Shown here: in pieces, positions 1,320-5,123 of the stretch
Position numbering within the stretch: position 1 is the first letter of the stretch
Layout: each line of letters starts with the position of its first letter
DNA from: a virus
DNA: 48,092 bases
Virus record (IMG/VR): IMGVR_UViG_3300023108_001461
Location: 1-48,092 of that record
Reading direction: 5' to 3' (one strand)
Notes under the pieces: model-generated
Database searches by the model: none
Told to the model about the DNA's origin: nothing
Seen by the model: the letters and a program-made list of their open reading frames with translations, nothing else
Made by a program: the position numbers and the translations under genes

Positions 1320-1327
1320 TATTTATC
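1320..1327 (-). promoter_or_regulatory. T4-like late promoter octamer GATAAATA
   Basis: The octamer matches the NATAAATA late motif of T4-like marine phages. It overlaps the TGA stop of the upstream gene and is followed by CTGT and then the ATG of the 974-1315 gene, a spacing of four bases. If transcription starts as in T4, the mRNA is leaderless. Confidence 0.65.
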
Positions 1328-1988
1328 AACTTTGCGTTATGTTGATATACTTGTCGACACGCTTGATATTGCCACCTAGTGCGATAGATAAAAGGTTAAG
1401 CACCTTTTCGTTTTTTGCAAATATGTAAAAACCCTGTGTATAACCGTCATTTTTAATATTTTCAATACAAATTTGACCAGCCTTAATTAGTGATGGATTA
1501 TTCTCTATCCATTTGCCTGCACCAGGGTTTACTTTGTTTCCTAGTGTAACTTTGTATTCGTATTCGATTGGTTTTTCAGTATAGATTGTATTTGGTTGTA
1601 AATCAACTTGCTTATTTGGTTCATGAATACTAACAATTTTATCATGCATAAGGTTTTTTATTTTATCTACTATAGAATATTCTTTAGTATAAAGAGCTAA
1701 ATGTGATTGTTCAACTCTTAATTTATAATCCTCATAATTTAAACTTTGGCAAATATTGAAAAATAATTTAGCATCTAAAAAAGAGTTTATTTCTAGAGGC
1801 TCTGTGGTCCTATAACCCTTCCTCCATATTAAAGGTCTACCAAGCTCGTAATCTAATTGGATATAGTCTAAAACTTCTCTAGTATATCCGAACTTTTTTT
1901 CTCTAAATATTGGAGCAAGCTGTAGTCTTAGGTCAATTTTGTACGGATAAATGTCATAAAAAAGTTTTGTTGTCTCAAGTGTTTTCAA
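1326..1988 (-). CDS. Conserved T4-like phage protein of unknown function
   Basis: About 220 residues. An ATG at 2012 in the same frame would give 228 residues but lies deep in clpA and lacks a ribosome site. I prefer the TTG at 1988 (or 1991), which has AAAGGAG 7-10 bases upstream and yields MKTLETTKLFYDIYPYKIDL, an opening I associate with a conserved cyanophage/pelagiphage family. The body is mixed alpha/beta with many Tyr, Lys and Ile. There are no membrane segments or enzymatic signature that I recognise. The gene overlaps the end of clpA by about 14 bases and is presumably co-translated with it. Its function is unknown. Confidence 0.65.
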   Translation of the reverse strand: MKTLETTKLFYDIYPYKIDLRLQLAPIFREKKFGYTREVLDYIQLDYELGRPLIWRKGYRTTEPLEINSFLDAKLFFNICQSLNYEDYKLRVEQSHLALYTKEYSIVDKIKNLMHDKIVSIHEPNKQVDLQPNTIYTEKPIEYEYKVTLGNKVNPGAGKWIENNPSLIKAGQICIENIKNDGYTQGFYIFAKNEKVLNLLSIALGGNIKRVDKYINITQS

Positions 1989-4212
1989 CAACGTGCTCCT
2001 TTGTTTGTACATCTAAATATATTTCATTATCTTTAACTGTAATGTTTACAGAACCACCGTTTTTAAGGTCACCAAATAACATCATGCGTGACAACGGACG
2101 TTTAATATCCTTGTCAATTACACGTTGTAGCGGTCTTGCGCCCATACGTTTATCAAAACCTTTATCTACTAATACATCAAGTGCTTCGTTATCAAGATTA
2201 ATTTTGATATTCTTTTGTGTAATCATATCTGTAAGTTCTACTAAGAACTTGCCTACAATTTTCATCATTACTTCTTTAGTCAATGCACCAAAAGTAATTG
2301 TTCCATCTAATCTGTTTCTAAATTCTGGAGCAAAATATTTCTTTAGATCTGTATCTTCATAATCTTTTTCGCCACCATCAAAACCAATTGAATTTTTCTC
2401 AGCTTCTTGTGCACCTAAGTTAGTTGTAAGAATCAAAACACAATTCCTTGCATCTGCTTCTTTACCATTAGAACCTGTTAGTTTACCATTGTCCATAACT
2501 TGTAATAAAATCTGTGAAACATCTGGATGTGCTTTTTCAACTTCGTCTAGCAGTAGCACACAATTAGGATTTTCTTGTAATTTTGTAATTAACAATCCTT
2601 GGTTTTCTTCATAGCCTACATAACCTGGAGGCGAACCAATTAGTTTTGCCACAGAGTGTTTCTCTTGATATTCACTCATATCAAAACGTACTAGTTGTAC
2701 ACCTAATTGTTTTGCAAGTTGTTTTGCTGTCTCAGTTTTACCTGTACCTGTTGGACCCATAAACACAAACGATCCAATAGGTTTGTCTTCTGCCTTCAGT
2801 CCTGCTTGTGCAACCAGTATTTTATCAACAACTTCTTCAATTGCTTTGTCTTGTCCGTATACTGCTTTCTTTAAATTTTCTTCTAAGTGTTTTAGATTGT
2901 CAGTTTCTTTTTCAGCAACCTGCTCTTCAGGCATTTTAACAATTCTAGCAAGTTCAAATTGTATTTCTTCTACGCCAATTTTTCTTTCTACGTCTTTGTC
3001 TTTAAGATTAAATCTAGAACATGCAACGTCTATCAAATCAATAGCTTTATCAGGCAGTTTTTTGTCAGGCTGATACTTAACGCTTAACTTGATTGCTTCT
3101 TCAATTGCTTCTTCTGTAATATTTGTTTTATGATAATCTTCGTAATATTTTTTAATTCCATTTAAAATATCTTTCGTTACATCTTTGCTAGGTTCGTCAA
3201 CTGTAACACGTTGGAAGCGGCGCATCAATGCTCTATCTTTTTCAAAATATTTGCGGAATTCTTCCCATGTAGTTGATGCAATGACTTTTAGATCACCTTT
3301 TGAAAGTGCAGGTTTTAACATATTTGCTAGATCATTTGAATTACCTTGTCCGCCTGATCCTGCACCACTCATCATATGTGCTTCGTCAACAAACATAATT
3401 GTTTTGCCCTTCTTTTTAAGAGCATGTAAAATCATTTTAAAACGTTCTTCAAAATCACCTCTGTATTTTGATCCTGCTAACATTGCGCCAATATCTAAAT
3501 TATAAACATTGTATTCTTTAAGGAATTCTGGTACATTACCCATTACAATATTATAAGCCATACCCTCTGCAATAGCAGTTTTACCAACACCAGGATCACC
3601 AACTAACAAAACATTGTTTTTTGCACGTCGACCTAGTGCTAGTGCAATACTTTCTAGTTCATCTGATCTACCAATAACTGGATCTACTTTTTGTTTTTTA
3701 ACTTCTTCATTTAAATTTGTAGTAAATGCACGTAAAGCTCTTGTTGCTTCACCGGTCATTTCTTCATCTTGTAGATCTTCAATTTCACTACTTACATATT
3801 CTGCAAATGAATCTTTTTGAACTTTTGATTTATGCAAATAATAAACACTTACACATTTCTTTTCTGCAAGTATACTTATAAGTACGTCTGATAATTCAAT
3901 TGCACTTCGTCCACTAAACAAAACTTGTGTAAACGCTCTATTTAGAACCCGTTCGACAGTCTGTGTTTTTTTAGGTTTGAATTTTGAATCTGTAATCTTT
4001 AATTCGTCACAGTTGTTCTTCAAATGATGCTCAAGATTCTGTTTTAGGTAATCTAAATCAGCACCATATCCTTTTATGACATTAATAAAATTTTCTTCAC
4101 ATAACATTGCAAACAATAAATGCTCTACAGTCACATATTCATGACTAAGTTTTTTAGCATCTTTAATTGCTTTTTCAAATACAACCTGTAATGTTTCGCT
4201 CGGTTCTACCAT
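1975..4212 (-). CDS. clpA: ClpA-type AAA+ unfoldase
   Basis: A 745-residue protein, close to the usual ClpA length. The N-domain spans about 1-140. The first AAA+ module has Walker A GDPGVGKT at 205-212 and Walker B VDEAH near 275-279. The second has GPTGTGKT at 486-493, LLDEVE near 554-559 and the FRNRLD sensor region near 631-636. The tripeptide IGF at 609-611 sits where the ClpP-docking loop lies in ClpA, so the protein probably docks on host ClpP to unfold and degrade proteins; no phage clpP is visible here. The gene follows dnaJ and has its own sigma70-type promoter overlapping the dnaJ stop. AAGGAG lies about 13 bases before the ATG, slightly long. ClpB is less likely because the long middle coiled-coil domain is absent. 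Confidence 0.93.
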   Translation of the reverse strand: MVEPSETLQVVFEKAIKDAKKLSHEYVTVEHLLFAMLCEENFINVIKGYGADLDYLKQNLEHHLKNNCDELKITDSKFKPKKTQTVERVLNRAFTQVLFSGRSAIELSDVLISILAEKKCVSVYYLHKSKVQKDSFAEYVSSEIEDLQDEEMTGEATRALRAFTTNLNEEVKKQKVDPVIGRSDELESIALALGRRAKNNVLLVGDPGVGKTAIAEGMAYNIVMGNVPEFLKEYNVYNLDIGAMLAGSKYRGDFEERFKMILHALKKKGKTIMFVDEAHMMSGAGSGGQGNSNDLANMLKPALSKGDLKVIASTTWEEFRKYFEKDRALMRRFQRVTVDEPSKDVTKDILNGIKKYYEDYHKTNITEEAIEEAIKLSVKYQPDKKLPDKAIDLIDVACSRFNLKDKDVERKIGVEEIQFELARIVKMPEEQVAEKETDNLKHLEENLKKAVYGQDKAIEEVVDKILVAQAGLKAEDKPIGSFVFMGPTGTGKTETAKQLAKQLGVQLVRFDMSEYQEKHSVAKLIGSPPGYVGYEENQGLLITKLQENPNCVLLLDEVEKAHPDVSQILLQVMDNGKLTGSNGKEADARNCVLILTTNLGAQEAEKNSIGFDGGEKDYEDTDLKKYFAPEFRNRLDGTITFGALTKEVMMKIVGKFLVELTDMITQKNIKINLDNEALDVLVDKGFDKRMGARPLQRVIDKDIKRPLSRMMLFGDLKNGGSVNITVKDNEIYLDVQTKEHVVENT

Positions 4213-4243
4213 ATTATTTTATTATCTCCTTAAACTAGTCCTT

Positions 4244-4272
4244 AGTATATACAATTTTCTTCAATTAGTCAA
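4244..4272 (-). promoter_or_regulatory. Sigma70-type (likely early) promoter for clpA
   Basis: Minus strand reads TTGACT, then exactly 17 bases, then TATACT. The -35 box overlaps the TAA stop of dnaJ. A start near 4237 would give a leader of about 25 bases containing AAGGAG before the clpA ATG at 4212. Confidence 0.75.
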
Positions 4273-5110
4273 TGCCTTTTTTTGCCAATCTCTTTTTTAT
4301 CTTCCTAATAGCATCTACTTCAGTAATACCTAAATTTTTAGGCATAATTGCGTTAATTTGTACAAGCATGTTACCTTTTGACCCTGTTCTTACATCAGGC
4401 CAACCGTGGCCAGTAACACTTAATCTAGTACCTGGATTAGTTCCTGGGGGTATATTCAGCTTAATTACACTTCCATCTAAAGTTTTTAAGTTGACTGCTC
4501 CCCCTGTAATTAAGTCAAAAATATCAATATTAATTACTGTATTAATATTTAATCCATTCAATGTATATTTACTGTGTGGTTGGACATTAATTTGTACATA
4601 TAAATCTCCTCTTTGTCCGTTTGGTAATTGTTCACCAAAACCACTGTATCTAATTTTATTACCATGTTGGGCACCTTTAGGTATTTGTATTTCTACTGTT
4701 TCTTCCCTACCAGTTCTAAGCCTGTATGTACCTATTATTGTCTTTCCTCTATATGCTTCTTCAAAATTTATTTTTACTGCTATTGTAATATCTGCTCTTT
4801 GCCTTTGTCTTTGAGCTTGGAACGGATTAAACCCAAACGCTTGGAATATATCTTCAAATCCTCCTGGCATACCTCCGTCAAATCCATCAGTACTATATCT
4901 AAAGCCATTCATGTCTGGCTGTGGATTATCATATGCTTGCCTTTTTTGAGGATCTTTTAGTGTGTCGTATGCTTCGTTGATTTGTTTGAATCGAGTATCA
5001 TCACCACCTGTTCTATCAGGATGGTTTTCCATAGCAAGTTTTCGGTATGCTTTCTTTAATTGTTCTGGAGATGCATCTTTATTGACACCTAGGGTTTGAT
5101 AGTAGTCCAT
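4265..5110 (-). CDS. dnaJ: DnaJ-like co-chaperone (CbpA type, no zinc finger)
   Basis: A 281-residue J-domain protein. The J domain occupies about 1-62, with the Hsp70-activating HPD at 30-32. A short Gly/Phe-rich linker follows (about 70-100), then the two beta-barrel substrate-binding domains typical of DnaJ class B (about 105-270). The CxxCxGxG zinc repeats of class A DnaJ are absent, so it resembles CbpA. It would stimulate host DnaK on phage or host clients. It directly precedes clpA, suggesting a joint role in remodelling and proteolysis. A GATAAGTA octamer ends five bases before the ATG, so expression may be late and leaderless. The start is fixed by the conserved DYYQTLGV opening. Confidence 0.93.
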   Translation of the reverse strand: MDYYQTLGVNKDASPEQLKKAYRKLAMENHPDRTGGDDTRFKQINEAYDTLKDPQKRQAYDNPQPDMNGFRYSTDGFDGGMPGGFEDIFQAFGFNPFQAQRQRQRADITIAVKINFEEAYRGKTIIGTYRLRTGREETVEIQIPKGAQHGNKIRYSGFGEQLPNGQRGDLYVQINVQPHSKYTLNGLNINTVINIDIFDLITGGAVNLKTLDGSVIKLNIPPGTNPGTRLSVTGHGWPDVRTGSKGNMLVQINAIMPKNLGITEVDAIRKIKKRLAKKGID

Positions 5111-5115
5111 ACATC

Positions 5116-5123
5116 TACTTATC
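5116..5123 (-). promoter_or_regulatory. Variant late promoter octamer GATAAGTA for dnaJ
   Basis: One mismatch to NATAAATA. It is followed by GATGT and then the dnaJ ATG at 5110, the same five-base spacing as at other late genes here. The same GATAAGTA variant recurs at 15747-15754, which supports it as a real site. Confidence 0.45.

Follow-up and report, generated by a model that had tools for sequence, protein, structure and literature searches.

A conserved clpA beside dnaJ in a large marine phage, a candidate unfoldase gene for a phage-encoded ClpAP-type protease

The window analysed here, the whole 48,092-base stretch of IMG/VR virus record IMGVR_UViG_3300023108_001461, is a fragment of a large marine phage genome in which clpA stands between dnaJ and a conserved gene of cluster c2, with the associated sequence elements collected in Table 1.

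Table 1. Features of the dnaJ–clpA locus, in window positions
Feature	Position	Strand	Description
Cluster c2 gene	1326..2012	-	Conserved 228-aa phage protein; overlaps the clpA end by 38 nt
clpA	1975..4212	-	745 aa; two-ring AAA+ unfoldase with N-domain
IGF ClpP-docking loop motif	2380..2388	-	Codons 609-611; counterpart of E. coli ClpA I617-G618-L619 in the alignment
Probable RBS of clpA	4226..4231	-	AAGGAG
Sigma70-type promoter upstream of clpA	4244..4272	-	TTGACT-N17-TATACT; 10/12; overlaps the dnaJ stop codon
dnaJ	4265..5110	-	281 aa; type II (zinc-less) J-protein; HPD at 30
Late-type promoter core upstream of dnaJ	5116..5122	-	ATAAGTA; ends 5 nt upstream of the dnaJ start codon

The clpA product is a full-length ClpA-type unfoldase, as the original prediction held, running from a Clp N-domain through two AAA+ rings to a D2-small domain (Pfam). 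TIGR02639, the ClpA equivalog model, is the best-matching model by a wide margin (residues 5–725, 877 bits), and as this score lies below the 993-bit cut-off the protein is filed as a divergent member of the ClpA family rather than as a strict equivalog. Alignment with E. coli ClpA (1ksf) spans residues 8–732 of the window protein (E 2e-202) at 44.7% identity; Walker A and B motifs, pore tyrosines and arginine fingers are present in both rings, and those Walker, pore and arginine-finger residues that were checked are invariant across an alignment of 68 unique marine ClpA rows. The protein is apparently complete, with its catalytic residues intact, and is predicted to be active. The neighbouring DnaJ, for which zinc fingers had been said to be lacking, matches the J-domain and the C-terminal domain (Pfam), retains HPD and contains neither a single cysteine nor CxxCxGxG, as befits a type II J-protein. 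A megablast search against sequenced phages returned no nearly identical relative.

Rarity of such a protein in T4-like phages, also supposed at the outset, proved wrong for the group to which the window phage belongs: a survey found clpA to be common among these large phages, with 597 or more stretches of viral contigs coding for ClpA relatives, and ClpA has been described as a core gene of the moraphages, which are published jumbo-phage lineages (PMC12619734), and as conserved among RaK2-like phages (PMC6102473). GenBank phage records matching ClpA number 167, 78 of them nearly full length, some being mislabelled bacterial contigs; the best phage-labelled match, ‘Acinetobacter phage MD-2021a’ (L116, CAKLQF020000008.1), is a bacterial contig (argC, clpS-clpA, ynfA) and was treated as such. 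Phylogenetic analysis placed the phage ClpAs in one clade apart from bacterial ClpA with a support of 100, the long-branch sequence of the 735-kb phage assembly LR756501 (L120, LR756501.1) falling outside it; identity to bacterial ClpAs does not exceed ∼46%, except on four contigs filed under bacterial metagenome-assembled genomes (MAGs) whose ClpA groups with the phages. These four (L231, PBPT01000016.1, 335 kb; L232; L233; L234) carry the labels Neomarinimicrobiota, Halobacteroidaceae, Pelagibacter and Rickettsiales, and probably represent phage DNA that was binned together with bacteria. That ClpA is common in bacteria would suit a gene taken recently from a host and without a dedicated function in the phage, a reading already contradicted by the tree, and further disfavoured by the distance to the closest bacterial sequences outside the phage clade and by the core status of the gene in moraphages, such that its likelihood is very slight.

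Gene order around clpA is strongly conserved, with dnaJ upstream, directly or with one gene between, in 78 of 81 loci, and the c2 gene immediately downstream in 79. The intervening gene, present in 42 of the 81 loci (among L008–L078), encodes ∼169 residues with peptide deformylase motifs and overlaps the dnaJ end; its counterpart in phage Phosso is annotated as peptide deformylase, and dnaJ also adjoins clpA in Atu_ph07 and PA5oct, a spread of gene order that shows the dnaJ–clpA linkage to be old. A literature search found no paper on the pair in PA5oct. The c2 protein is modelled by AlphaFold2 with a pLDDT of 95.8, its fold finding no match in the PDB at E 0.001 or better, and its only matches are uncharacterised phage proteins, one of them from Atu_ph07. 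Endolysin and spanin genes lie further upstream, and clpA falls within a late cluster, near lysis and virion-type genes. A phage-encoded DnaK was considered as the partner of DnaJ and was found in only 2 of the 17 records searched, so host DnaK is assumed to take this part; a full DnaK gene lies ∼1 kb from that of ClpS on two phage contigs (L107 and L110 on record G036; L108 on record G039).

Two distinct promoter types had been assigned to the pair, sigma70-type for clpA and late-type for dnaJ, and both are real and conserved in the subclade of the window phage. The sigma70-type site of the window is marginal when taken alone (shuffle p ∼0.07) and is conserved in relatives: among unique loci in which no gene intervenes between dnaJ and clpA and the two stand 25 nt or more apart, all 20 hold a site scoring at least 10/12 and 17 reach 11 or 12, whereas none of 22 comparable gaps at other places in these loci reaches 11. 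No separate clpA site is found in 34 loci in which the deformylase gene overlaps dnaJ or in ∼10 in which clpA abuts dnaJ, a separate promoter being missing in about two thirds of relatives. An unsupervised count of 7-mers upstream of genes was headed by ATAAATA (67 occurrences against 7.6 expected), which has been published as the late-promoter motif of jumbo phage CBB (PMC5259590). Upstream of dnaJ the variant ATAAGTA dominates, and a late-type motif ends precisely 5 nt upstream of the ATG 41 times over 56 unique upstream regions. In many relatives (L003–L080), ATAAGTA or ATAAATA ends 4–5 nt before the start codon of both dnaJ and the c4 gene; a further late-type site lies at 1320–1326 of the window. 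With T4 late-promoter spacing, transcription from a motif 5 nt before the ATG would start at its A, so that the late transcripts of dnaJ and c4 may be leaderless, a subject on which a literature search found no paper for late transcripts. The dnaJ–clpA gap holds no stable terminator-like hairpin, and clpA is therefore probably also read late. The proposed timing, with clpA early and dnaJ late, thus stands as regards the two promoter types and holds only in part as a division, the dnaJ transcript meeting no such hairpin and most relatives having no clpA promoter of their own; clpA would be transcribed early from the host-sigma70-type promoter and a second time when late transcription starting at the dnaJ promoter reads through into it.

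Conservation is also marked at the ClpP-docking loop, where the IGF that had been reported as kept aligns exactly with the E. coli IGL. A check for its loss in close relatives found IGF in 67 of the 68 unique marine rows and LGF in the remaining one, so that glycine and phenylalanine are each present in 68/68 and isoleucine in 67/68, with the flanking loop columns varying widely. IGF recurs in the distant phages PA5oct, Atu_ph07 and Phosso; RaK2-like phages, although they encode ClpP, show a drifting motif (IGV, IGM, MNM, IGG), and the ClpA of LR756501 has MQGM at this position. Such drift, in phages whose clpA stands alone among virion genes, is consistent with a ClpA that works alongside DnaJ and chiefly without ClpP, unfolding or translocating proteins during virion assembly or disaggregation, as are the lysis and virion-type neighbours of the window gene and the translocase or assembly role proposed in a review (PMC7824862). 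This function is nonetheless improbable as the principal one, as a near-invariant docking motif in the marine clade would go unexplained if ClpP were unused, and ClpP and ClpS co-occur with ClpA.

Profile searches of the 48-kb window, itself a fragment, detected no ClpP and no ClpS, and the partners were sought in longer relatives. Among 46 contigs chosen for their ClpA, eight match the ClpP family model, six strongly (the contigs of L008, of 180 kb and with a 76% identical ClpA, L010, L020, L051, L063 and L068) and two weakly (G036, G039), the latter possibly representing another protease of the family. Relatives of 180, 245, 300, 332 and 357 kb encode both ClpP and ClpS; when contigs were chosen by ClpP instead, all three above 200 kb (245, 300 and 332 kb) carried ClpA and ClpS, and ClpS was found in 6/17 and 11/16 long contigs of two sets. 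Of 11 ClpA-encoding jumbo phage genomes, drawn from isolates or assemblies, 10 have ClpP and 10 a ClpS match (9 over the cut-off), counts that are not independent, since five of the genomes are close kin; LR756501, the only one of the 11 to encode neither, is likewise without IGF. Long relatives without ClpP or without ClpS comprise G015, G026, G045, G046 and G057, of which the 199-kb G057 has ClpP only, and the 330-kb G046 has ClpS and an IGF-bearing ClpA with no detectable ClpP. A further ClpP, from the MAG whose 335-kb contig holds a 73% identical ClpA, sits on a different contig of 102.7 kb and was accordingly not counted as a partner.

The phage partners keep the catalytic and pocket residues at most positions compared, the ClpP docking-pocket and ClpS N-degron contact positions being taken to be those of the E. 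coli proteins. The ClpP triad S97/H122/D171 is kept in 11/11 aligned phage sequences, and the docking pocket is largely hydrophobic, the position of E. coli Y60 not being kept in most; in the N-degron pocket of aligned phage ClpS, N34, D35, T38, V43 and K84 are kept in 9/9 and H66 and E79 in 8/9. An insertion of 10 residues in the handle region, after the catalytic histidine, occurs in ClpPs of marine phages and PA5oct (L103, L104, L105, L106, L129), and is missing from those of L101 and L102.

The original prediction had ClpA docking on host ClpP and redirecting degradation, of which the intact and strongly conserved motif stands and the host partner is weakened. In that account the phage itself lacks ClpP, and its ClpA, docked through IGF, competes with host unfoldases; the retained motif, the window without ClpP, and G046 with ClpA and ClpS are each compatible with it. 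Set against these, most of the longest relatives and 10/11 of the jumbo genomes encode ClpP and ClpS, and hijacking of host ClpP, although plausible enough to keep as a fallback, appears unlikely; it should probably yield to a phage ClpAP(S). The co-encoding of ClpP and ClpS in ClpA genomes, with the sole exception also lacking IGF, makes the phage-encoded system the most likely, and the window ClpA is here read, with a probability of about 0.6 and from sequence comparison, as the unfoldase of a phage-encoded ClpAP-type protease, specified in a compact block of dnaJ, often peptide deformylase, and clpA; for the window phage itself host ClpP could still serve, since no ClpP lies in the fragment. 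Hexameric ClpA would dock via IGF on phage ClpP, or on that of the host in phages lacking the gene, and would unfold substrates delivered by ClpS or by its own N-domain for degradation, while DnaJ with host DnaK would fold proteins or hand them over.

More tentatively, a widespread clade of large marine phages may inherit a complete phage-specific proteolysis system of ClpA, ClpS and extended-handle ClpP, coupled to DnaJ and peptide deformylase, which would amount to a self-contained N-degron protease beside that of the host, possibly with the c2 protein as an extra phage-specific factor; this wider proposal is speculative. The window clpA itself is confirmed as a conserved phage ClpA of known type. 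Phage ClpA has been annotated many times and is usually taken for a stray chaperone or for a means of hijacking host ClpP, and the linkage of dnaJ, deformylase and clpA, the near-invariant docking residues and the co-encoded ClpP and ClpS suggest instead that an entire regulated protease is encoded by a large phage group. PA5oct-type phages, propagating on the laboratory strain P. aeruginosa PAO1 and carrying dnaJ–clpA, ClpP and ClpS, would allow phage-driven degradation to be tested by gene removal; the paper on Paride, a PA5oct relative replicating in dormant cells, was checked for a link and does not mention Clp.

Among known systems, the ClpA–ClpP–ClpS machinery of E. coli has its domains in the order found in the window protein, which retains every catalytic, pore and docking residue as well as the N-domain residues E23, E28, T81 and R86, and whose relatives likewise encode ClpP and ClpS; the differences are an identity of 45%, the linkage of phage clpA to dnaJ, with deformylase often joining them, in place of clpS, and the handle insertion of one phage ClpP type. 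Atu_ph07 of Agrobacterium, whose Clp set has been published (PMC6102473), and Phosso of Sinorhizobium have dnaJ beside clpA (dnaJ-def-clpA in Phosso) and ClpP and ClpS elsewhere, but differ in their hosts, in their ClpAs (41–42% identical) and in the gene annotated immediately downstream of clpA. PA5oct and its kin (Paride, MIJ3, Callisto), the closest isolates to the window phage by clamp loader (55%), share IGF, ClpP with the handle insertion, ClpS and, in PA5oct, the dnaJ–clpA pair, whereas their ClpA is 42% identical and their host is P. aeruginosa. The moraphages (ClpA as VOG02072) are likewise large and aquatic and count ClpA among their core genes, and some also encode DnaJ and DnaK (PMC12619734). 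RaK2/121Q-like phages resemble the window phage as jumbo phages with full-length ClpA and matches to ClpP and ClpS, and depart from it in having no dnaJ annotated beside clpA, a solitary gene on the opposite strand with virion genes around it, and in their changed docking motif.
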